A stretch of 40,311 bases of DNA from a virus: positions 1-40,311 of IMG/VR virus record IMGVR_UViG_3300048115_000173, one strand, 5' to 3'. Within the stretch, counting starts at the first letter, position 1; every line of letters begins with the position of its first letter. The notes under the pieces are model-generated. The model ran no database searches. It saw nothing but the letters and a program-made list of their open reading frames with translations, and had not been told where the DNA came from. The translations under genes were made by a program, and so were the position numbers. This document shows positions 14,034 through 38,568 of this stretch, piece by piece.

Positions 14034-14443
14034 AAGAAACGAAGCTCGGGCAATGGTTCAAAACAAAAGCACCGAAGGTCTTCGACCTCATCGGGGAGAT
14101 TGTCCCAGGTGCGGACGCTCTGAAAGCGATAAGTGCTCTAATCGACAACACCGAAACCAGCGACGAAGAAAAGACAAACGCGAAACTCCTGATGGAGGAA
14201 ATCGCAAGTGCGGACAGAGCGAACGCAAGGAACCGGGAGATTGAGATAACTAAGAATCTAGGACAGCGGGATTGGATGCAAGTCTTTGTCGGGTCGGCTG
14301 CGATGATTATCGGGATTGTCATGGTTATATGGGCGAAGACCGGAGTACAAGACAAAGAGATCTTCTTTCACATCCTCGGGTTCGCTGAAGGTACCCTCGT
14401 GGGTCAAGTCGTGAATTATTATTTTGGTTCTGCCAAGAATTAG
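14015..14443 (+). CDS. Putative holin, 3TM-like
   Basis: A 142-aa protein. The N-terminal half is helical with GEIVPGADALKAIS and an Asp/Glu/Ala-rich EEKTNAKLLMEEIASADRANARNREIE stretch. The C-terminal half is hydrophobic, with segments around 90-110 (FVGSAAMIIGIVMVIWA) and 115-135 (IFFHILGFAEGTLVGQVVNYYF). This recalls the GTA-type 3TM holins. It is the last gene before a strong terminator, at the end of the late operon. It would form membrane lesions at lysis. Confidence 0.6.
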   Translation: MRGTPLKETKLGQWFKTKAPKVFDLIGEIVPGADALKAISALIDNTETSDEEKTNAKLLMEEIASADRANARNREIEITKNLGQRDWMQVFVGSAAMIIGIVMVIWAKTGVQDKEIFFHILGFAEGTLVGQVVNYYFGSAKN

Positions 14444-14494
14444 TATATTTGGGTTCTGTTTTGTCGTGGGTTTGTTACCCCGTCGTTTGTTTGG

Positions 14495-14528
14495 AGAGGG
14501 AGGTCGAAAGCGGCTTCCCTCTTTTTTT
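14495..14528 (+). terminator. Rho-independent terminator ending the late operon (phage A)
   Basis: AGAGGGA (14495-14501) pairs with TCCCTCT (14516-14522) around a short internal hairpin with a GAAA turn, followed by a run of seven T. It separates the structural/lysis operon from the early promoter 33 bases downstream, as the terminator at 34584 does in phage B. Confidence 0.85.
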
Positions 14529-14560: not shown

Positions 14561-14590
14561 TTGGATAACTAAATAAGTTGCGTATCTTTG
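14561..14590 (+). promoter_or_regulatory. Bacteroidetes-type early promoter (phage A operon)
   Basis: TTG (14561-14563), a 19-base spacer, and TATCTTTG (14583-14590), an exact match to the Bacteroidetes -7 consensus TAnnTTTG. Twenty bases, AAATAAGTTGCGTATCTTTG, are identical to the phage B promoter at 34649. Two more copies precede the terL-flanking cassettes. The CA-rich leader to the ATG at 14616 contains no Shine-Dalgarno sequence. Confidence 0.9.
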
Positions 14591-14615: not shown

Positions 14616-14855
14616 ATGAACTACTCAATCACACAAACAATCGCACGAGTCAAGGAGACAGCAACTGGAACAATGGCGAACGGCAACAAGTTTAACTCAT
14701 GCATCTACTTCAACGGATGCGAGTGGAAAGTTCAACTCACTTACTTTGAAATTGAGTCTGACGGATGCATTAACGAAGTGACTGACCCGAACATCTTCAC
14801 TGGATGGACTAAGGCAGAAGCAAAGGTTGCACTCATGAACGCACTCGCAGCATGA
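14616..14855 (+). CDS. First early gene of phage A, 79 aa, unknown
   Basis: The protein starts MNYSITQTIARVKETATGTM and has no recognised domain. It is the first gene after the strong early promoter, a position often held by host-takeover or anti-defence proteins (inference). Its opening MNYSI resembles the first residues of the proteins at 22486 and 34708, but the rest does not align, so only the promoter, leader and start region seem shared. The next gene is coupled by an ATGA overlap. Confidence 0.75.
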   Translation: MNYSITQTIARVKETATGTMANGNKFNSCIYFNGCEWKVQLTYFEIESDGCINEVTDPNIFTGWTKAEAKVALMNALAA

Positions 14856-15064
14856 ACAACGAGCCCGAATGGTTTCAGCAAGTGCTAAACCGAACCAAAC
14901 AAACGCAATCAATTTTCACCATGAACGACAACAAACAAACAGAACTCAAGCAAGCGTGGCTCACCTTGCATGACCTCCGACAGGAGCAACCCACAACCCA
15001 TCGTCTAACACGAACCGCGCTACAAATGGCGATGGATATCGTACAAGAAAACATTCAGCTATGA
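14852..15064 (+). CDS. Early protein, 70 aa, unknown
   Basis: A Gln/Thr-rich small protein (NEPEWFQQVLNRTKQTQ) with ATGA overlaps at both ends, inside the early operon. No membrane segment or motif. An internal ATG at 14921 (MNDNKQTELKQAWL) follows a CA-rich stretch and could be an alternative start. Function unknown. Confidence 0.6.
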   Translation: MNNEPEWFQQVLNRTKQTQSIFTMNDNKQTELKQAWLTLHDLRQEQPTTHRLTRTALQMAMDIVQENIQL

Positions 15065-16574: not shown

Positions 16575-17246
16575 ATGAACGGAATATGGATACCCCAGGA
16601 GATTTGGTTGTTGGATGACCTCTCTCCCATGCAAAGAATTCTCCTCTCTAAAATTCACGCGCTCAGTCACAAAGACGGGTCGTGTTGGGCGGGAGATGAC
16701 TTCCTCGCTGAGTCTCTTGGGGTCTCTTCTCAGTACATCCGTAAAATGCGGAAGGACCTTTGCGAGACTGCACACATCAAATGCGAAGGGTACGGTCACC
16801 GAAGGAAGATGACGGTTCTTGTAGAAGCAACTATCGGAACAAGCAACTATCGGAACAAGCAACAATCGTTGCAAGAAGAAGCAACTATCGTTGCAAAAGT
16901 TGCAACTACTGTTGCAAAAGAAGCAACTACAGTTGCGCAGAGTATAGAGAAGAGTAAAGAGAAGAGTAAAGAAGTAGTGAAGAGAGTACGTTTCAAGGAA
17001 CCGAGTTTGGAAGAAGCGATGCATTCGTTCGAACTTGCGGGATCATCTCGCGACGAAGGCGAGAAGTTTTGGAACTACTACGAATCAAACGGATGGAAGG
17101 CGGGCAAAAACAAAATGAAGAACTGGCAAGCCTCCGCCCGAAATTGGATAAAACGATCAAATGAATTTACAACGAACAAAACAGGAGCTGCAAAGCAACC
17201 AAGCAAAAACCAGCTTGAAGACTATCTCAAGCACGGGACTATTTAA
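16575..17246 (+). CDS. Replication initiator-like protein with intragenic iterons (phage A)
   Basis: A 223-aa protein. Residues ~1-85 form a winged-helix-like domain (IWIPQEIWLLDDLSPMQRIL, then DDFLAESLGVSSQYIRKMRKDL) of the type at the N-terminus of phage replication initiators. The middle (about 88-122) is a repetitive Ala/Thr/Val linker encoded by the iterons. The C-terminal part (about 137-205, FWNYYESNGWKAGKNKMKNWQASARNWI) is a common module of such initiators. It matches the phage B protein at 37825 in layout. Like lambda O, it probably binds its own iterons and recruits the replisome. Confidence 0.75.
   Translation: MNGIWIPQEIWLLDDLSPMQRILLSKIHALSHKDGSCWAGDDFLAESLGVSSQYIRKMRKDLCETAHIKCEGYGHRRKMTVLVEATIGTSNYRNKQQSLQEEATIVAKVATTVAKEATTVAQSIEKSKEKSKEVVKRVRFKEPSLEEAMHSFELAGSSRDEGEKFWNYYESNGWKAGKNKMKNWQASARNWIKRSNEFTTNKTGAAKQPSKNQLEDYLKHGTI
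16827..16936 (+). repeat. Iteron array inside the initiator gene: candidate origin (phage A)
   Basis: Four 14-bp palindromes of form GCAAC-N4-GTTGC start at 16859, 16881, 16902 and 16923 (spacing 22, 21, 21, about two helical turns each). Two imperfect half-sites, GCAACTATCGGAAC, precede them at 16827 and 16843. The following ~55 bases are almost purely purine on this strand (AGAGTATAGAGAAGAG-like). Iterons next to an asymmetric A-rich tract inside an initiator gene is the layout of the lambda origin. Confidence 0.75.
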
Positions 17247-20207: not shown

Positions 20208-20562
20208 AGAGGAGAGGTTCGACAAGCTCGTTCAATCCATTCGAGAGTTCCCCGAGATGCTCCAAGCGCGACCCATTGTTGTCAACCCCGACATGGTTAT
20301 AATCGGAGGGAACATGAGATTCAAAGCGTGCAAAGCAGCGGGACTCACCGAGGCACCCGTCTATGTCGCTACATGGGGAGAACTCAAAGACCGAGAGTTC
20401 ACGATAAAGGACAACACGAACGCAGGAGAACACGACATGGACATCCTCGCGAACGAATGGGATGCAACCGAATTGAATGACTGGATGCTTAACGTATGGG
20501 ACCCCCAAGAGGAACCCGAAGAGAAAGAAGAAAAAGTCAAATGCGAATTATGCGGTAAGTAA
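20158..20562 (+). CDS. ParB-like nuclease-domain protein
   Basis: A 134-aa protein. RENPRNPRTIKEERFDKLVQSI, RPIVVNPDMVIIGGNMRFKACKAAG and a later TIKDNTNAGEHDMD are the ParB N-terminal domain pattern (GGNMR corresponds to the GxxR nucleotide box). The MKLS start at 20158 matches the usual beginning of phage members, while a start at 20116 would deepen the overlap. The C-terminus has CELCGK. Such proteins are common just before phage terminase genes. CTPase or nuclease activity is possible but not shown. Confidence 0.75.
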   Translation: MKLSGIRENPRNPRTIKEERFDKLVQSIREFPEMLQARPIVVNPDMVIIGGNMRFKACKAAGLTEAPVYVATWGELKDREFTIKDNTNAGEHDMDILANEWDATELNDWMLNVWDPQEEPEEKEEKVKCELCGK

Positions 20563-20906
20563 TGGAAGCACTACAACTTGACAAAACTGACACTAAAAAA
20601 GGATTGATGCTCGAGGCTCTCGAGAAGTCGCTCGGTATCGTATCAACGGCTTGCAAGATGGTTGACATCTCAAGGCAGACCCATTACGCATGGCTAAAGG
20701 CAGACGAGGAATATAAGAAAGCGGTCAACTCAATCCAGGACGGTGTTCTTGACTTCGCAGAATCGCACCTCTACAAACTCGTAAAGGAAGGCAACCCAGC
20801 AGCGACGATCTTCTTCTTGAAGACCAAAGGCAAGAAGCGCGGATATATCGAACGGCAAGAGATAGAGGTTCAAGAGAAGAAGCCGCTCTCATGGTTGGAT
20901 GAATAA
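20562..20906 (+). CDS. terS: Terminase small subunit
   Basis: A 114-aa helical protein. GIVSTACKMVDISRQTHYAWLKADEEYKKAV is a helix-turn-helix of the type that small terminases use to bind the packaging site, followed by GVLDFAESHLYKLVKEGNPAATIFFLKTKGKKRGY, a typical oligomerisation/C-terminal part. It starts in a TAATG overlap with the ParB-like gene. It is separated from terL by a 330-base promoter-gene-terminator cassette. Confidence 0.8.
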   Translation: MEALQLDKTDTKKGLMLEALEKSLGIVSTACKMVDISRQTHYAWLKADEEYKKAVNSIQDGVLDFAESHLYKLVKEGNPAATIFFLKTKGKKRGYIERQEIEVQEKKPLSWLDE

Positions 20907-20924: not shown

Positions 20925-20954
20925 TTGCATAACGAAAAAACTTGCGTATCTTTA
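20925..20954 (+). promoter_or_regulatory. Early-type promoter of cassette 1 (between terS and terL)
   Basis: TTG (20925-20927), 19-base spacer with CATAACGAAA and CTTGCG, then TATCTTTA (20947-20954). It matches the early operon promoters in both spacer length and the TTGCGTATCTTT core. An in-frame ATG at 20959 would be at or before the transcription start, so the real start must be the ATG at 20983. Confidence 0.85.
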
Positions 20955-20982
20955 CACCATGACAAACGCAAACAACACTACC

Positions 20983-21204
20983 ATGAACGCTCAACAACTA
21001 CACGGCCGATTCGTAAACGTAACAGGCAAGGGATTCGGTGAAGTAATTGATTTTGTAATCGACGGAGGCGACTACAACACCAACATCGTCGAGCTTGTAA
21101 CCATTCTAACCGCAGACGGTCGCAACATTGTTGCAGCTCCTAAGTCTTGCAATGTTATGACTTACAACGAATACCAAGACTTCTGCGAATTGGCAGGAGT
21201 TTAA
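20983..21204 (+). CDS. Cassette 1 (moron-like) protein, 73 aa
   Basis: It reads MNAQQLHGRFVNVTGKGFGEV, IDFVIDGGDYNTNIVELVTI and ends NEYQDFCELAGV, a small soluble alpha/beta-looking protein of unknown family. The start is set by the promoter position. The leader AAACAACACTACC before the ATG matches the leader of the phage B gene at 34708. It has its own promoter and terminator and interrupts the terS-terL pair, the definition of a moron. An early anti-defence or host-modifying role is inference. Confidence 0.75.
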   Translation: MNAQQLHGRFVNVTGKGFGEVIDFVIDGGDYNTNIVELVTILTADGRNIVAAPKSCNVMTYNEYQDFCELAGV

Positions 21205-21211
21205 TTTAAAC

Positions 21212-21232
21212 GCCCCTTCGGGGGCTTTTTTT
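21212..21232 (+). terminator. Rho-independent terminator of cassette 1
   Basis: GCCCC (21212-21216), TTCG tetraloop, GGGGC (21221-21225), then seven T. A stable UUCG hairpin directly before the large terminase start, so terL must be reached by readthrough or by another signal. Confidence 0.9.
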
Positions 21233-21237
21233 ATACC

Positions 21238-22398
21238 TTGCAAACGGTGCAACTCCCCGCGACATATTACCACGTTAAAGAATGCAAGTCGAAGATTCAA
21301 ATCCACCAGGGCGGGACACGATCCGGGAAGACGTACTCCATCCTCACGGCACTCATTGAGCTTTGTCATAAGAACTCGGGTCTTGTTGTCACCATATGCC
21401 GAAAGACATTCCCCGCACTTCGAGCCACCGCGATGAGAGACTTCTTCGAGATACTCAACAACGAGGACATCTATAACCCCGACCTCCACAACAAGAGCGA
21501 TGCAACCTATCAACTGTGGGGGAATATGGTTGAGTTCATCAGCATCGACCAACCGCAGAAGGTCAGAGGACGCAAGCGAGACGTTCTATTCATAAACGAA
21601 GCCAACGAGATCAATCTCGAAGATTGGCGGCAACTCCTCCTCAGAACAACGGGGAGGGTTCTTTTAGACTATAACCCATCAGACGAATTCCACTGGATCT
21701 ATGAAGAAGTCATCCCACGAGAAGACGCAGAGTTCTTCCGCACCACGTACAAAGACAACCCGTTCCTCCCTGAAAGTGTGGTCATGGAAATTGAGCGGTT
21801 TAAAACAGCAGACGAGAACTTTTGGAAAGTATACGGTCTCGGTGAACGAGGAACGTCACAATCAACCATCTTCACCCACTGGAAAGAAATAAACCAAATA
21901 CCAAATGAATTCAAACTCCTCAACATCGGATTGGACTTCGGATATACAAACGACCCAACAGCCATCGTCCGAGTCTATACAGACGGACACGGATTTGCAG
22001 TCGACGAACTCTGCTACGCGACAAGACTCACTAATTCGGATATTGCAAAAGTCCTCCGAGATAATCAAGTCGATAGATCGGATGTTGTTATCTGTGACTC
22101 CGCTGAGCCAAAGAGCATCGACGAGATACACGCTCACGGATTCAATACTCACGGAGCAAGAAAGGGAAAGGATAGCGTCAAAAATGGAATCCAGTTCCTC
22201 CATTCGCGACCGCTTCTTGTCACGGCTCGGAGTGTAAATCTTATCCGCGAACTCAGAAACTACAAATGGAAGGAAGACAAGAACGGGAAGCAACTCAATG
22301 AACCCGTAGACAAATTCAACCACGCCATCGACGCGATGAGGTACGCGATCACATTCAACCAAACGAACCCGAACTTCGGCTCTTATGCTATCGGATAG
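21238..22398 (+). CDS. terL: Terminase large subunit
   Basis: A 386-aa packaging motor. ATPase: Walker A GGTRSGKT (25-32) and Walker B VLFINEAN (116-123). Nuclease: GLDFGYTNDPTA with Asp233, CDSAEPKSIDEI with Asp287, and a HAIDAMRYA end with a third acidic residue. No suitable ATG exists at the 5' end. TTG at 21238 or GTG at 21247 must serve, only a few bases after the cassette terminator. The original start may have been altered when the cassette was inserted. The terminase is complete. Confidence 0.9.
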   Translation: MQTVQLPATYYHVKECKSKIQIHQGGTRSGKTYSILTALIELCHKNSGLVVTICRKTFPALRATAMRDFFEILNNEDIYNPDLHNKSDATYQLWGNMVEFISIDQPQKVRGRKRDVLFINEANEINLEDWRQLLLRTTGRVLLDYNPSDEFHWIYEEVIPREDAEFFRTTYKDNPFLPESVVMEIERFKTADENFWKVYGLGERGTSQSTIFTHWKEINQIPNEFKLLNIGLDFGYTNDPTAIVRVYTDGHGFAVDELCYATRLTNSDIAKVLRDNQVDRSDVVICDSAEPKSIDEIHAHGFNTHGARKGKDSVKNGIQFLHSRPLLVTARSVNLIRELRNYKWKEDKNGKQLNEPVDKFNHAIDAMRYAITFNQTNPNFGSYAIG

Positions 22399-22431: not shown

Positions 22432-22461
22432 TTGGATAACGAAAAGAATTGCGTATCTTAG
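22432..22461 (+). promoter_or_regulatory. Early-type promoter of cassette 2 (after terL)
   Basis: TTG (22432-22434), 19-base spacer GATAACGAAAAGAATTGCG, then TATCTTAG (22454-22461), one base off TAnnTTTG. It carries the same TTGCGTATCTT core and is followed by a CAAACAAACGAAAC-type leader without Shine-Dalgarno to the ATG at 22486. Confidence 0.8.
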
Positions 22462-22485: not shown

Positions 22486-22755
22486 ATGAACTACTCAATC
22501 CAACAACTACAAGACCTTGATTCTCAGCTAGTTATAAGCGGTAATTCAACTTCAATTGATTACATTCAGGGAGGTAAATACGTAATCGAAGGCATATTCA
22601 ACCCAGCTCAGGCAATTGTAAAGTATCGAGATTGGCTAGTTGTTTTAGAAGATTGCGGAAACGGTTTTGAAGCAATAAGCGCACGCAACACAATGACAGG
22701 AACAGAATACAGTAACCCGCTGCAATGGTTTTCAAATAAAGTCATTCAAGAATAA
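22486..22755 (+). CDS. Cassette 2 (moron-like) protein, 89 aa
   Basis: It begins MNYSIQQLQDLDSQLVISG and contains YIQGGKYVIEG, IVKYRDWLVVLEDCGNGFE and MTGTEYSNP. It is a close homologue (most residues identical) of the first early gene of phage B at 34708, although here it is an isolated unit after terL with its own promoter and terminator. No known domain. The compact beta-like core and early promoter suggest a small early-acting protein, perhaps anti-defence (inference). Confidence 0.8.
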   Translation: MNYSIQQLQDLDSQLVISGNSTSIDYIQGGKYVIEGIFNPAQAIVKYRDWLVVLEDCGNGFEAISARNTMTGTEYSNPLQWFSNKVIQE

Positions 22756-22757
22756 CA

Positions 22758-22781
22758 AGCCCCTCACGGGGCTTTTTTTTT
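22758..22781 (+). terminator. Rho-independent terminator of cassette 2
   Basis: AGCCCC (22758-22763), loop TCAC, GGGGCT (22768-22773), followed by a T run to 22781. It closes the single-gene unit after terL. Confidence 0.9.
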
Positions 22782-22808
22782 GCCCTAACTTTCGGGCTAC
22801 CCGCACGA

Positions 22809-22888: not shown

Positions 22889-23545
22889 ATGATGGAACTC
22901 AAACTCCCGCACCGATGGTCTGACCTCTCACTCGGAGAACTCCAGGTCATGATGACCGCAGACAACCCACTCGAGAAGATATCCATATGCTCCGGGTACT
23001 CGGTGGAGAAACTGCGTGCGACGCCTCAGAAGCTAATAGAAGCCGCCTCAGCGCATTTAGACAACCTTCTCACCCAAGAGACCGCACGTCATCAGAAAGT
23101 CGTTGAGATGGACGGAAAACGATTTGGCTTTATTCCGAACTGGGATGAGTTCACGGCGGGTGAGTGGATCGATATGGAAAACCACCTCGAAGACTTTTGG
23201 GCAAACGCTCACAAAATTACCGCTCTCCTATATCGAGAAGTGACCTACGAACTCGGAGACAAATACGAGATAAAGAAGTACACCGCCAAAGAAGACGCAA
23301 GCATCTTTGAAGAGATGCCCGCAGACCTTATCTCGGGGATGCTGCTTTTTTTTTGGACTTCCAGAAATCAACTGCTTCACGATATGCAGTTCTCTTTGCT
23401 GGAGGTGGCGGACAAAGCGATCCAGTCGGCCAAAAATGGGGGTGGTATCATCTCCTCTATTCCCTCGCAGGGGAAGACGTTCTCAAAATGGACGCGATTA
23501 CGGAACTCCCTGTCCAAGTCATCTTCCAGCACCTCAGTTATCTAA
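22889..23545 (+). CDS. Tail assembly chaperone-like protein, 218 aa (phage A)
   Basis: The N-terminal ~155 residues (LPHRWSDLSLGELQVM, VEMDGKRFGFIPNWDEFTAGEWIDME, KITALLYREVTYELGDKYEIKKY) match a conserved Bacteroidetes-phage family located at the start of tail operons, with the layout of G-type tail chaperones. The zero-frame C-terminus ends in Ser-rich sequence. In the -1 frame the region 23311-23577 is open and encodes GQKWGWYHLLYSLAGED, a plausible alternative C-terminal domain, so a frameshifted GT-like product is likely. Alternatively a base is miscounted in a homopolymer. Confidence 0.65.
   Translation: MMELKLPHRWSDLSLGELQVMMTADNPLEKISICSGYSVEKLRATPQKLIEAASAHLDNLLTQETARHQKVVEMDGKRFGFIPNWDEFTAGEWIDMENHLEDFWANAHKITALLYREVTYELGDKYEIKKYTAKEDASIFEEMPADLISGMLLFFWTSRNQLLHDMQFSLLEVADKAIQSAKNGGGIISSIPSQGKTFSKWTRLRNSLSKSSSSTSVI
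23347..23353 (+). promoter_or_regulatory. Candidate -1 frameshift site T TTT TTT (phage A)
   Basis: Within a run of nine T, the zero-frame codons CTT-TTT-TTT-TGG give the slippery heptamer T TTT TTT. A -1 slip here would make a protein of about 229 aa ending at 23577 and containing the WGWYHLLYSLAGED segment. The zero frame also looks coding just after the run (SRNQLLHDMQFSLLEVADK), so the shift could instead occur later, near AAAAATGGGGG at about 23435, or reflect an indel. Confidence 0.5.
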
Positions 23546-26500: not shown

Positions 26501-26992
26501 AGGATTTACGACGGCAGCACGGGCGTGGTGACGGAGAACGGCAAGCCAGCGGTGGAGATTGACCGTTCAGAATATTTGTCATTTAATTCAAGAATTTACA
26601 CTGCAAGAACAATGGTTGCAGTATTGAACATGACTGCCTTTCAATATAACAGAGTTTGCGGTAATAGCGTAGAAATTGAGTCAGGTATCAAAGGGTGGTC
26701 GGACGGAGGCGGTCTAGATGATGTAAACGAGAAGTTTAATATAAACGCCGTGTCTGTGAATGGAGCGCTTGACACGACTAGACCATATGGCAGCGACATG
26801 ATTGGCTTGTATAATTGCAGCTATTTTACTGGCGATGGCGTAGACTCGGATGGACTTGGTGAAATTGGCTGGCACGTTAATAATCGAAGCCTAAAAGGTA
26901 ACTTGCAAGAACTCATAGTATACCCTGTAGAAGACACAGTTAACCGCACTGACATCGAGGACAACATCAACACTTTTTACGACATCTACTGA
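23561..26992 (+). CDS. Tail fibre/receptor-binding protein, 1143 aa
   Basis: Residues ~1-160 (ERFEDFATSHFFIKSFSFG, YNIEVYILDVPADK) look like a tail-completion-type structural domain that in related phages I recall as a separate protein. Residues 409-502 are 17-aa repeats. Residues ~655-890 and ~900-1143 are two tandem concanavalin-like domains with the ArabFuran-type signature: AYSTRQLRF (661) with WKDQSGNGNDAT (714), and AYSLRLLDS (908) with WYDQSSNSNTA (961). They likely bind cell-surface glycans. The last 104 codons recur at the window start. The next gene overlaps the stop (TGATG). Confidence 0.8.
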   Translation: MITFNNIVERFEDFATSHFFIKSFSFGSPDDVDLAKFTEFPLMHLVYTGATYDSGTKTYNIEVYILDVPADKSDKVERQREVVSDAEQCAEDIIADIRMGGNIFTFAQDYEVVNATTTPLEEETKNVLSGVLLDLSVAIPYEWDACNAPIDGVTPGGGDEPSYARRGFLRMLTLDGSTDVLSVRTIKVNNGTLTDDGEGVVTLDTGGVDTLAALTDVTLANLENHDVLKYNSGQTRWENVDWLLILYTELKQGTTTTQNNGSRTDSALELTVTQAKLKAGITGVEITETSPGDIDLIVATDASGSTAYTAINIDGSKTANEADINLYGNVYIHDEGNGTKARMRLNSADNVNLSLPTSSGTLALTDDIPSAPVDSVNGQTGVVVLVTTDIDEGTNLYYTEARVAANAAVVANTAKVGITTQQAADITANNAKTGITPTQASEITANTAKVGITTQQADDITANNAKVGITQTQADDITANNAKTGITPTQAGEITANTAKVGVIAGGTSGQALVKASGTDYDLEWADAASGVQYHERFATDAETFRSGATDTVELYYTAKADGDGLAESASSDTPTAGKVIKRKIYYSEAAFADPDTGTWVEFTTLADDITFANAKAALLEYLKARTGGTVPISLKQTWEEVSDTAYLLDETFGSGAEAAYSTRQLRFAQTDCMVIRRASDSTTTTIGFDGSGNISEADIETFCTGTSCTVSEWKDQSGNGNDATAAAPSNEPTIYTGGALVKDGGRVAFTSTASTSFDFTQISNVNSVFSVLRPTDFTNSNSSFILGDSTNFDYHSGNSAEWLSATHADPVVRNGDNYLNGLSVNLTTLARSAGQYVLSMIHTDGTAVASRISKDRFLTRSWVGNRQELIIYSDDRTNDRTGIESNMGDYFTQNTPLLDTYSGAAAAYSLRLLDSTYTGDAIEVYNGSSYADIGFNVFGELDTVALAAHCGSNDGLVSKWYDQSSNSNTAAQTVTSKMPRIYDGSTGVVTENGKPAVEIDRSEYLSFNSRIYTARTMVAVLNMTAFQYNRVCGNSVEIESGIKGWSDGGGLDDVNEKFNINAVSVNGALDTTRPYGSDMIGLYNCSYFTGDGVDSDGLGEIGWHVNNRSLKGNLQELIVYPVEDTVNRTDIEDNINTFYDIY
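24785..25066 (+). repeat. 51-bp (17-aa) tandem repeats in the fibre gene
   Basis: Five full units and one partial unit of 51 bp encode ITAN(T/N)AK(V/T)GIT(T/P/Q)(Q/T)QA(D/S/G)(D/E), starting at 24785, 24836, 24887, 24938, 24989 and 25040. Codons vary while the peptide is kept, so selection is on the protein. Such repeats form an extended trimeric coiled-coil shaft in phage fibres. Confidence 0.85.
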
Positions 26993-27393
26993 TGAACGGA
27001 TTTATCATAGTCCTACCAACGGACACGCAGACAAGCGAGCGCAGAGCGTACCAAATAACGCGCGAACTATACAACATAAGCCGACCCGTTTTGATACAGG
27101 CAGAAGGCGAAGCAGCCTCGACCGTGTTCGGGATTGTAGTACACCCTGACGGAGTACAGAACGCGCTGCAAGTGGATACCGATTACCTTATCAACGTACA
27201 CCCTGCTGCAAACCTCGAACGCCTTGTTGCTTGCTTCCCTGAGCTGTCAAACGATGAGCGGTATTCCCTCAGTAGTTACGTGCAAGTGAATCAGCGGTTC
27301 CCTTTCGGGCATATCGTGCCAAGCGATACGACGATCCGAACACAGGAGTACATGGAGGAAAACGGGTGGTTTACTGATCAACCTGAAATTGAT
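26679..27393 (+). repeat. Second copy of the 715-base segment at the window start
   Basis: Bases 1-715 align here without a gap at a constant offset of 26678. The fibre part differs by only a few bases. The 133-aa gene has increasing differences, and similarity ends at its stop codon. The sequences following the two copies (716 onward and 27397 onward) are unrelated. This marks the phage A/phage B boundary. Confidence 0.95.
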
Positions 27394-27574: not shown

Positions 27575-27988
27575 ATGGCCATTTTTAACGGTACAGAATT
27601 AGGCGTATACATCGGCGGCACGCTGATCGCAGCGGCAACAGATTGTTCGCTCTCATTGAACATGGAAACAATCGACATTACCACAAAGGACAGCGCAGGA
27701 TTCCGTGAGCTGCTCGGCGGTGTCAAATCAGGATCAATGAGCGTTAGCGGTTTGATTGATTACAACGACGCTTCAAATGATGACGTTTCTGACTTGTTTA
27801 CAGCGTTGGACAATCGCACAGCTTTAACCTTAAAGTTTGCAAAGGCCAATCCTGTTGTAGGCGAAGACTTCAATTACAGCGCTAGCGGTTTCATCACTAG
27901 CCTTGAGCAGTCAGGCGGCACGGAGGATACAGCTACTTATTCAGCTACCTTTGAGTTGAGCGGTGCAATTACACAAACGGCTGAATGA
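27575..27988 (+). CDS. Major tail tube protein, TP901-1-like (phage B)
   Basis: A 137-aa protein with CSLSLNMETIDITTKDSAGF, RELLGGVKSGSMSVSGLIDYND and a beta-rich C-terminus (ATYSATFELSGAI), the pattern of the TP901-1-like major tail protein family. It polymerises into the tube around the tape measure. It overlaps the tail chaperone gene by 4 bases, the classic order tube, G, GT, tape measure. Confidence 0.85.
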   Translation: MAIFNGTELGVYIGGTLIAAATDCSLSLNMETIDITTKDSAGFRELLGGVKSGSMSVSGLIDYNDASNDDVSDLFTALDNRTALTLKFAKANPVVGEDFNYSASGFITSLEQSGGTEDTATYSATFELSGAITQTAE

Positions 27989-28269
27989 TTGAAGTAAACG
28001 GCACAGAGTACCCAGTGCGGTACAGCATGAAGGCGCTGAAGAAGTTTGAGCGTAAAACAAAAGTCAATGTATTCAGCTTATCCGATCCGTCGAAGCTAAG
28101 TGCAGAGGCGTGCGCCTTCCTTTGTTTCGTTGGTGTTGAATGTGGATGCACCTTTGAAGGGCAGGACTTCGATATGGACCTGCCGACGTTTGAAGACTAC
28201 ATTACACTTGAACACGTCACACAGTGCTTTGATGCACTCGGCGAATACAGCAGCGAAAAAAAAGCATAG
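27985..28269 (+). CDS. Tail assembly chaperone, G-type (phage B)
   Basis: A 94-aa protein starting IEVNGTEYPVRYSMKALKKFERKTK, a helical chaperone with acidic middle. It ends just after an A8 run with codons GAA-AAA-AAA-GCA-TAG. A -1 slip there continues without a stop into the next ORF, producing a G-T fusion of about 207 aa. Position between tail tube and tape measure and the slippery end match the lambda G/GT system, in which the fusion recruits tube subunits to the tape measure. Confidence 0.85.
   Translation: MIEVNGTEYPVRYSMKALKKFERKTKVNVFSLSDPSKLSAEACAFLCFVGVECGCTFEGQDFDMDLPTFEDYITLEHVTQCFDALGEYSSEKKA
28257..28263 (+). promoter_or_regulatory. Programmed -1 ribosomal frameshift site A AAA AAA (phage B)
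   Basis: The slippery heptamer A AAA AAA followed by G lies exactly in the zero frame (AAA codons at 28258 and 28261), two codons before the G-gene stop. After slippage, reading continues from 28263 as SIDGTDKPIGWPDIIRMG and joins the T frame with no stop between. This is the standard tail-chaperone frameshift arrangement. Confidence 0.85.
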
Positions 28270-28607
28270 ACGGCACAGACAAGCCGATTGGTTGGCCTGA
28301 TATTATACGGATGGGGATGGGCATTTTACGCCTGTCCCCTTCTGCGTTTTGGTCAATGACATTCGGCGAGGTAAGCCTTGCACTTGACGCCAACCGTGAG
28401 AGCGAGGAGATGCGCGAACGGATGGAGTGGGAGCGCACGCGGTGGCTTGGTTCTATGATCATGCAACCCCACCTAAAAAAAGGGCGTAAATTGCAGCCAA
28501 AGGACCTGATGCAGTTTCCATGGGAGAAGCCAAAGGCAAAGGCTGACAAGCTCACCAAGGAGGAACTGAGACAACGAATATTAGAAAGAGATCAATGGCA
28601 AAGCTGA
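28263..28607 (+). CDS. T domain of the tail chaperone fusion (phage B)
   Basis: About 114 residues translated only after the -1 shift. DKPIGWPDIIRMG, LRLSPSAFWSMTFGEVSLAL and a charged helical C-terminus (KADKLTKEELRQRILERDQW). The segment with Trp-Ser/Thr-Phe-Gly-Glu is typical of T domains that follow G proteins. An ATG at 28311 could allow independent translation, but the open junction favours fusion. It overlaps the tape-measure start by 13 bases. Confidence 0.8.
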   Translation, partial: SIDGTDKPIGWPDIIRMGMGILRLSPSAFWSMTFGEVSLALDANRESEEMRERMEWERTRWLGSMIMQPHLKKGRKLQPKDLMQFPWEKPKAKADKLTKEELRQRILERDQWQS

Positions 28608-34648: not shown

Positions 34649-34678
34649 TTGCGTAACGAAATAAGTTGCGTATCTTTG
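34649..34678 (+). promoter_or_regulatory. Bacteroidetes-type early promoter (phage B operon)
   Basis: TTG (34649-34651), a 19-base spacer and TATCTTTG (34671-34678). The last 20 bases are identical to the phage A promoter. An in-frame ATG at 34666 lies inside the promoter, so translation must begin at the ATG at 34708, behind a CAAACAAACAACACTACC leader. Confidence 0.9.
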
Positions 34679-34707: not shown

Positions 34708-34971
34708 ATGAATTACTCAATCCAACAACTTCAAGACCTTGACGATAAGTTAGTTATAAGTGGTGATTCAACTTCAATTGACTACATTCAAGGCGGTAAA
34801 TACGTTATGGAAGGCGTATTGAAACCAGCTCAAGCAATTGTGAAGTATCGAGATTGGTTAGTTGTTTTAGAAGATTGCGGAAACGGTTTTGAACCAATAA
34901 GCGCACGCAACACAATGACAGGAACAGAGTACAATAACCCAATGCAATGGTTTTCAAATAAAGTAAAATGA
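34708..34971 (+). CDS. First early gene of phage B, 87 aa, unknown
   Basis: It begins MNYSIQQLQDLDDKLVISG and is closely similar over its whole length to the cassette 2 protein at 22486 in phage A. It is the first gene after the early promoter and is coupled (ATGA-type overlap) to a tiny acidic ORF. No known domain. High conservation between otherwise diverged phages, and two genomic contexts, suggest that it is valuable and mobile. Confidence 0.8.
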   Translation: MNYSIQQLQDLDDKLVISGDSTSIDYIQGGKYVMEGVLKPAQAIVKYRDWLVVLEDCGNGFEPISARNTMTGTEYNNPMQWFSNKVK

Positions 34972-37319: not shown

Positions 37320-37828
37320 TATGGCAAAAGCTTACAACCGATGAAATGGCCTTTGCATACGAAACAGGCAAGGACGTCATACAGGCAAAAATGAAAAACA
37401 ATCATACAGGCAACAATGAACTCAGTAAGTATGCTGGTTACGTTGGTCAGGTCGCAGCAATGAAGTACCTAAAGGCGGTAAACATTGACGATTATGAGTA
37501 TGATTTGGAGCGCAATGGCAAACGCATAGAAGTAAAAACAAAGGTGCGGAACAGACTACCCGATCCGAATTTTGCGGCTTGTGTTTATGCATCAAATGCG
37601 GATCAGCTTTGTGACGTGTATTTGTTTATGCAGGTAATGAAACGCGCAGACAACCCAAAAAAGTTAATGCACGGCGCTTACTTGCTTGGGTGGATTGATC
37701 GCGGCCTGTATAATGAACGGTTTTACCAAGTGCGTAAAGGTGATAAAGACGGCAAATATTACACAGAGCCAGCCGACGCGTTTAAAATTGAGCTGCGTGA
37801 TTTACGCCCAATTGACGAGCTAAAATGA
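37316..37828 (+). CDS. PD-(D/E)XK-like nuclease
   Basis: A 170-aa protein. GYVGQVAAMKYL, then DYEYDLERNGKRIEVKTKVRN with Asp63 and Glu72-Val-Lys74, is the core of a PD-(D/E)XK restriction-endonuclease-like fold. It may process recombination or replication intermediates or act as an endonuclease on host DNA. It is coupled by ATGA overlap to the initiator gene. No equivalent was seen in phage A. Confidence 0.65.
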   Translation: MIWQKLTTDEMAFAYETGKDVIQAKMKNNHTGNNELSKYAGYVGQVAAMKYLKAVNIDDYEYDLERNGKRIEVKTKVRNRLPDPNFAACVYASNADQLCDVYLFMQVMKRADNPKKLMHGAYLLGWIDRGLYNERFYQVRKGDKDGKYYTEPADAFKIELRDLRPIDELK

Positions 37829-38568
37829 AGCGTAAAGGCATATACATACCGCTGGAGTTGTGGAATCTTGGCGAGTTGCATCCTAATGAACGGGTGTTGC
37901 TTGCTGAGGTTGCCAGCTTTGAGGACAAGAACAAACCATGCTTTGCAGGAAACGAACACTTTGCCCAACTGCTTAACGTATCAACGGCCACGGCACGGGG
38001 CTATATTTCCAAGCTTGTAAACGCTGGTTTTCTAGTCCGAGAGGGTGACAGATACAACAGACGACTGCGTAGATTAGCGCAAACGAGTGCGCAGAATAGC
38101 GCAGACGAGTGCGTAGATTCACGCAGACGAGTGCGTAAATCCGCGCAAACGAGTGCGCAGAATTCAGCACATACTATATCAACTACTATATCAACTACTA
38201 ATACATCTACTAATAGTGCAAAAGTGTTGAATGTTGTTTTGCCGTTTCAATCGGAAAAATTTGAGGCGGCATGGAACGAATGGAAAGAGTACAAACAAAC
38301 AGACCACAGATTCAAATACAAATCCCACAAAAGCGAACAACGGGCACTAATCAAACTACAAAATGAACACACCAACGAAAACGACGCAATCGACGCAATT
38401 CATACAGCAATTGCAAACGGATGGAAAGGCTTGGTATTTAACTCACCCAAAGGCGGGGGAGCTAACAAGCGGCGAGCGGATAACCTTGAAAGAGATGTCA
38501 ACCGCGAAAAGCTTGCAGAATTTGCAAGAACTGGACGTATCACGCCTGACGGTGGAAACGTGCTTTAA
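37825..38568 (+). CDS. Replication initiator-like protein with intragenic iterons (phage B)
   Basis: A 247-aa protein. Winged-helix-like N-terminus (IYIPLELWNLGELHPNERVL, HFAQLLNVSTATARGYISKL), a low-complexity linker (about 78-130) encoded by the iterons and an A+T-rich stretch, and a C-terminal domain with EAWNEWKEYKQTDHRFKYKS and AIHTAIANGWKGLVF. Same layout as the phage A initiator at 16575 although sequence identity is low. Expected to bind the iterons and start replication. Its 3' end overlaps the partner gene. Confidence 0.75.
   Translation: MKRKGIYIPLELWNLGELHPNERVLLAEVASFEDKNKPCFAGNEHFAQLLNVSTATARGYISKLVNAGFLVREGDRYNRRLRRLAQTSAQNSADECVDSRRRVRKSAQTSAQNSAHTISTTISTTNTSTNSAKVLNVVLPFQSEKFEAAWNEWKEYKQTDHRFKYKSHKSEQRALIKLQNEHTNENDAIDAIHTAIANGWKGLVFNSPKGGGANKRRADNLERDVNREKLAEFARTGRITPDGGNVL
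38055..38158 (+). repeat. 22-bp iteron array inside the initiator gene: candidate origin (phage B)
   Basis: Four 16-bp units of form (G/A)CGCA(A/G)ACGAGTGCG(C/T) start at 38077, 38099, 38121 and 38143, exactly 22 bp apart. A degenerate fifth unit is in phase at 38055. Most have inverted arms GCGCA/TGCG(C/T). Because 22 is not a multiple of 3, the same DNA is read in different frames in successive units, so DNA sites, not a peptide, are conserved. An A+T-rich tract with repeated CTATATCAACTA follows at about 38172-38220. Confidence 0.8.

Follow-up and report, generated by a model that had tools for sequence, protein, structure and literature searches.

The inserted unit between terS and terL

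In the viral DNA analyzed here (the window, i.e., the whole 40,311 nt of IMG/VR record IMGVR_UViG_3300048115_000173), the genes encoding the small and large terminase subunits, terS and terL, are separated by a short unit with a gene of its own. This raises the question of what this unit is and how it came to lie at this position. Comparison with relatives indicates that it is probably an exchangeable accessory cassette, consisting of a small early gene with a host-type promoter and a terminator, which is swapped by homologous recombination. Four positions (slots) are distinguished below: T1, between terS and terL; T2, directly after terL; E2, heading the early region of the phage that carries terL; and E, at the head of an early operon of a second phage type. 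The features at the T1 junction are:

20562..20906, + strand: terS, 114 aa (PHROG 309, terminase small subunit, E 8e-9)
20899..20901, + strand: stranded ancestral terL ATG (terL start in relatives with an empty junction, overlapping the terS stop)
20925..20954, + strand: T1 cassette promoter (-33 TTG, N19, -7 TATCTTTA), recognized from its repeat copies and the consensus described in PMC6847099
20959..20982, + strand: predicted A-rich leader of ~24 nt, placed by the -7 spacing; the same leader is found in E-slot copies
20983..21204, + strand: 73-aa cargo gene, ATG at 20983 (four homologues, 89-99%, all heading an early operon)
21212..21232, + strand: intrinsic terminator with a UUCG loop (GCCCC-UUCG-GGGGC and seven T), from folding
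21247..22398, + strand: terL, likely GTG start by comparison, TTG at 21238 also in frame (PF04466, PF17288, PHROG 2)

The self-contained promoter-gene-terminator unit described in the initial annotation was thus found at 20925-21232. The core of its promoter, TTGCGTATCTTW, occurs without mismatch at exactly four places in the window (14578, 20942, 22449 and 34666), each inside a longer repeated block of 56 nt. In Flavobacterium johnsoniae, the -33 and -7 elements are described as TTTG and TAnnTTTG, with transcription starting 4-5 nt past the -7 element and leaders mostly longer than 10 nt (Baez 2019, PMC6847099). The T1 promoter matches this Bacteroidota consensus, not that of E. coli, and a scan for E. 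coli-type sigma-70 promoters gave nothing at this site. The designation "early promoter" in the initial annotation appears justified as to timing, as close kin of the promoter and gene head early operons, while the promoter type would have to be corrected to Bacteroidota. Based on the 4-5 nt spacing in PMC6847099, transcription is predicted to start at about 20958-20959, close to the position of 20960 proposed earlier. An alternative in-frame ATG at 20959 would make the 73-aa gene leaderless, and a 101-aa frame runs from 20899. The UUCG-loop terminator that had been noted was also recovered by folding; the hairpin has a free energy of -11.0 kcal/mol (z -2.4), and 4 of 200 shuffled sequences fold equally well.

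Occupancy of the junction in TerL relatives

Eighty loci were kept from at least 598 TerL relatives, and the junction was readable in 79 of these, which together with the window gave 80 junctions. The junction is empty in 46 of the 80, with the terS stop overlapping the terL ATG; comparison with these relatives bears out the proposal that the unit was inserted between two genes that are normally adjacent. The other 34 junctions (33 relatives and the window) carry an insert of 155-640 nt at the same point. Ten of these inserts are promoter-gene-terminator units and 24 are other ORFs without a terminator. A FastTree tree was built from terL with its first 20 codons removed (80 rows, of which 65 differ). 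It requires a minimum of 14 switches between the empty and the filled state, 10 of which are forced by well supported (starred) branches. The two states are more clustered on the tree than after shuffling (mean 25.1), which is expected where near-copies are present. The T1 insert appears to have been gained or lost repeatedly across the TerL relatives.

Occupancy is accompanied by a change in the terL start codon, which is ATG in all 46 empty junctions and GTG or TTG in all 34 filled ones. In several of the terminator-less inserts, the stop codon of the insert and the start codon of terL overlap as GTGA or TTGA, an arrangement that would suit translational coupling. Among the terminator-less inserts are genes for a Mom-family protein (L075, 9390-10007; PF25680, E 1.5e-34), a Dam methylase (L062, 2083-2517; PF05869, E 1.4e-16) and a GP88 protein (L055, 3350-3943; PF17338, E 1.7e-34). 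All three are apparently coupled to terL via overlapping start and stop codons.

The terL gene in the window has no ATG near the homologous start; both TTG 21238 and GTG 21247 are in frame. Since one relative has a stop codon after the TTG (L102) and another has lost the TTG (L088), GTG 21247 is favoured and is the likely start. The initial annotation had attributed the loss of the terL ATG to the cassette. The loss itself is supported by the pattern across the junctions, but in L010, L011 and L014, which are among the relatives closest to the window by TerL, terL already starts at GTG behind terminator-less inserts, and the loss therefore need not stem from this particular cassette.

Three further slots with the same promoter

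The four copies of the promoter in the window lie in T1, in T2 and at the heads of the early operons E2 and E. The features of the three further slots are:

22432..22461, + strand: T2 promoter, immediately 3' of terL (repeat of the T1 promoter)
22486..22755, + strand: T2 cargo gene, 89 aa (270 nt match the E gene at 34708 at 89% DNA identity)
22757..22783, + strand: T2 terminator (terminator scan, folding)
14561..14590, + strand: E2 promoter, heading the early region of the phage with terL (repeat of the T1 promoter)
14616..15064, + strand: E2 cargo, a 79-aa gene and the MNNEPEWFQ gene (79-aa protein 100% identical to the T2 cargo of L224)
34649..34678, + strand: E promoter, early-operon head of the second phage type (repeat of the T1 promoter)
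34708..34971, + strand: E cargo, 87-aa gene (the conserved MWREGYDYP gene is next downstream)

T2 was 26-111 nt long in 46 of 78 loci and at least 341 nt in 30 of the 78, and a promoter-like box and a terminator were found in every one of these 30. The L224 locus, whose T2 cargo is identical to the E2 79-aa protein of the window, also carries the signature of the second E2 gene (MNNEPEWFQ).

The record that joins these slots contains a direct repeat, in which 1-709 matches 26679-27387 at 91% (98% over the first 300 nt). In 24 loci, the terL-side gene at 22889 shares a stretch with the module at 1041-2600, and in none does it occur with the module at 27575-28600, while the shared tail end is linked to the latter module in five loci; the loci counted here overlap on some contigs. 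The record is therefore probably a join of two different phages, and 1-26678 probably represents a nearly complete, circularly permuted genome of the type that carries terL (~26.7 kb). If so, T1, T2 and E2 belong to one phage type and E to another, and cargo found in both sets of slots has to be read as shared between phage types. The promoter type and the TerL kin suggest that the hosts are Bacteroidota; the best TerL match among 50,697 phage records (42.8%) was to Flavobacterium phages, with no close cultured relative.

Exchange of cargo within and between slots

The 73-aa gene was seen in T1 only in this one record. Its four homologues (L005-L008, 89-99%) all lie away from terL, with the same promoter directly upstream, at the head of an early operon and with the MWREGYDYP gene downstream. 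A weaker hairpin is found between the homologue and the MWREGYDYP gene in each of the four; in L005 it has a free energy of -8.3 kcal/mol, and 44 of 200 shuffles were equally good. The early-operon head of L005 (4640-5255) holds two tandem cassettes, in the order promoter, 55-aa gene, terminator, promoter, 73-aa gene and hairpin, and the 55-aa gene resembles the T2 cargo of L023.

Cargo was collected with regular expressions over flank and promoter patterns, which yielded 82 calls (E 34, T2 31, T1 14 and three added by hand, as E2 and E2?), after three false E calls (L164, L208 and L200) had been removed before counting; the loci partly overlap on shared contigs, and near-copies were merged solely by exact end sequence. 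The T1 call in L058 is a wrong 35-aa frame, the likely gene there being 94 aa. The 82 instances fall into 45 families; 19 of these have at least two members, and 7 of the 19 were found in more than one slot. A 62-aa family occurs in E, E2, T1 and T2 at 72-100% identity between slots, and its E2 and E copies in L142 and L127 are identical. The 73-aa and 69-aa families are each found in E and T1 (the latter at 58%), an 88-aa family in E and T2 (87%), and the 79-aa family in the E2 slot of the window and, at 100% identity, in the T2 slot of L224. The cargo reading frames are kept across slots at 58-100% protein identity. The rule used gave no promoter-plus-ORF call for 27 of the 64 E flanks and for 10 of the 24 T1 flanks; such flanks appear to end at the edge of a contig, to have a variant promoter, to be empty or to hold an insert that lacks a terminator. 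By eye, the promoter region seems to run straight into the MWREGYDYP gene in L163, L168, L180 and L184, as in empty E slots.

The borders of exchange were compared over five segments (left flank, promoter/leader, ORF, terminator stretch and right flank), placed by hand. For the same slot with different cargo (window and L018), identities were 99%, 93%, 37%, 71% and 94%, respectively; for the same cargo in different slots (window and L005), they were 16%, 95%, 98%, 68% and 37%. The T2-E pair within the window is less clean (promoter/leader 68%, ORF 88%). Identity thus breaks off around the promoter and within the hairpin of the terminator, a pattern that suits, but does not prove, recombination at short homologies; neither a site-specific sequence nor an exchange event was seen directly. 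A RecT-like protein gave a weak match only (E 0.0036, short of the Pfam cut-off), on the side of the record assigned to the second phage type.

As read from the sequences, the insertion, the shared ends and the swapping of cargo within and between slots are evident, and the earlier description of an inserted unit holds. A single insertion event, by comparison, does not fit, as T1 is one of several occupied slots with exchangeable cargo. We infer the following mechanism. In a Bacteroidota phage, a unit in which a host-type promoter drives a small early gene ending at an intrinsic terminator would have come to lie between the two terminase genes. The promoter/leader block and the hairpin common to E, E2, T1 and T2 would serve as short homologies, at which recombination could replace the gene between the shared ends and leave the slot flanks in place. 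Translation of terL would start at GTG 21247, and its transcription would probably depend on read-through of the terminator. The cargo would most likely be a protein made early that acts on the host or on host defences.

Alternative readings and related systems

Lambdoid morons are extra genes with their own promoter and terminator. The T1 unit resembles those described in PMC7067206 in having both and in being inserted between genes that are adjacent in its kin. The initial annotation had called it a moron, which is apt insofar as promoter and terminator motifs are present and the unit is absent from most kin, including the 46 empty junctions. As a classical moron, it would be expressed from the prophage, alter the lysogen and be silent or passive in lytic growth. 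This strict sense, and with it an accessory action in the lysogen, is not supported, since no tyrosine integrase was found in the record (PF00589 at E <= 0.1, 0 of 1 records), although such a gene could lie elsewhere. Moreover, no prophage close to this TerL was found among 84,980 genomes (three loci, 37-46% identity), and the relatives of this promoter and gene stand at the front of operons that look like early operons of lytic growth. A classical moron is thus an unlikely explanation.

Less likely again is that the unit persists chiefly because it insulates terL transcription or sets its timing, with a coding content that hardly matters. Conserved regulatory ends around a freely varying coding part would fit this reading, but the cargo frames are preserved between slots, more than half of the 80 junctions manage without any unit, and 24 of the 34 inserts lack such a unit and yet keep an ORF. 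A very small chance may be given to an assembly artefact, in which the assembler put the early-operon head of one phage into the terS-terL junction. Elsewhere, the record is probably a chimera, and the promoter repeats could mislead an assembler. However, the slot-specific right end of T1 recurs with other cargo in contigs from other samples (L009, L018, L050-L053, L081, L083 and L058), and the homology shared on the right side is a short hairpin only.

Integron gene cassettes are exchangeable single-gene units in fixed positions. Site-specific mobility of that kind, or by a small transposon, would suit single-gene units that move among defined slots and the tandem pair in L005, but it is just as improbable as an artefact, given the lack of a tyrosine integrase match in the record, alignments (by eye) without target duplication or further shared end sequence, and slots that have just the promoter/leader and hairpin in common; each unit here also brings its own promoter, unlike integron cassettes.

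Swapping by homologous recombination, the preferred reading, has parallels elsewhere. In T4-type phages, work by Arbiol in 2010 and Comeau in 2014 is said to have described promoter-early stem-loop cassettes (PeSLs), in which early promoters and stem-loop terminators reportedly allow small genes to be shuffled among related phages. In a PeSL, promoter and stem-loop are joined as one composite motif between genes. At T1 and T2, the gene separates the two elements, and a stem-loop followed by a promoter is found between the tandem cassettes of L005. As far as PeSLs are presented in PMC4503421, the likeness lies in the use of an early promoter and a stem-loop terminator as shared sequences for exchanging small genes; the differences are that the phages studied here probably infect Bacteroidota, that their promoter is of the host TAnnTTTG type, and that promoter and stem-loop flank one small gene in slots that adjoin terL or head early operons. 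The early nature of the promoter is suggested here by homologous promoters at early-operon heads, and exchange of modules at the motif by the segment identities and by cargo found in several slots. The relatives are not T4-type myoviruses; their longest contigs are mostly 22-28 kb, and their tail tape measure protein and TerL differ.

A second parallel is provided by the start-associated sequences (SAS/ESAS) of cluster K mycobacteriophages, short repeats that precede many small genes and have been suggested as possible targets of homologous recombination (PMC3203893). SAS are tied to translation starts, have no terminator and tend to stay with a gene family, whereas the cargo behind the present element is exchanged. 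No report of this arrangement of slots and cassettes was found in the titles and abstract openings that were searched.

The 73-aa protein and the cargo pool

The 73-aa protein had no match in PHROGs, Pfam or PADLOC, or among 50,697 phage records, and a wider family search with an alignment returned the same four contigs. The best PDB profile match (4a5v, E 0.0071 over 36 residues) was taken as chance. The structure model is poor (mean pLDDT 57, pTM 0.40) and too weak for a fold search. A family search with 43 cargo sequences, one for each of 43 of the 45 families (the L058 T1 and L192 families were left out), gave only single-member matches at E <= 0.01. These matches, one cargo member each, were to PADLOC Orf5 (0.0066), Pfam Piwi (0.0093) and PHROGs 23350 (0.00057), 16298 (0.0037) and 588 (0.0044), and were taken as chance or uninformative.

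Mom and Dam are DNA modification genes with known anti-restriction use. Because such genes occupy T1 in relatives, a counter-defence role for T1-slot cargo is plausible, and the small cassette genes could by extension have such a role. The 73-aa gene itself lies quite probably inside an exchangeable cassette; the chances that its product is an early accessory protein directed at the host or at host defences are about even.

Tentatively, and with slightly less confidence, at least two types of uncultured Bacteroidota phages may share a pool of dozens of tiny early genes, including the 73-aa gene, which circulate among four fixed slots as a quickly replaceable anti-defence or host-takeover payload. 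If this is true, the slot flanks would provide a search handle for small phage genes under turnover; a handful of flank and promoter patterns retrieved the 45 cargo families, hardly any of which are known to Pfam, PHROGs or PADLOC. Candidate counter-defence proteins for Bacteroidota would also become available as a set for testing, along with a natural system in which to study how phages replace single genes and leave an essential operon intact.

Other features of the record

Upstream of the E2 promoter, at 14424-14524, a promoter-like TATATTTG box is followed within ~100 nt by a strong hairpin and a T run, with no obvious gene; this could possibly represent a short RNA or a leftover late terminator before the early promoter. 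L006 and L008 have a similar layout ahead of their E promoters. At 38058-38163, four tandem copies of a 22-bp unit lie inside the gene at 37825-38568, which encodes an HTH_36 domain, and are perhaps origin iterons. In the other early region, iteron-like repeated units of ~22 nt are found at 16837-16896, inside the corresponding gene of that region (16575-17246), which likewise encodes HTH_36.
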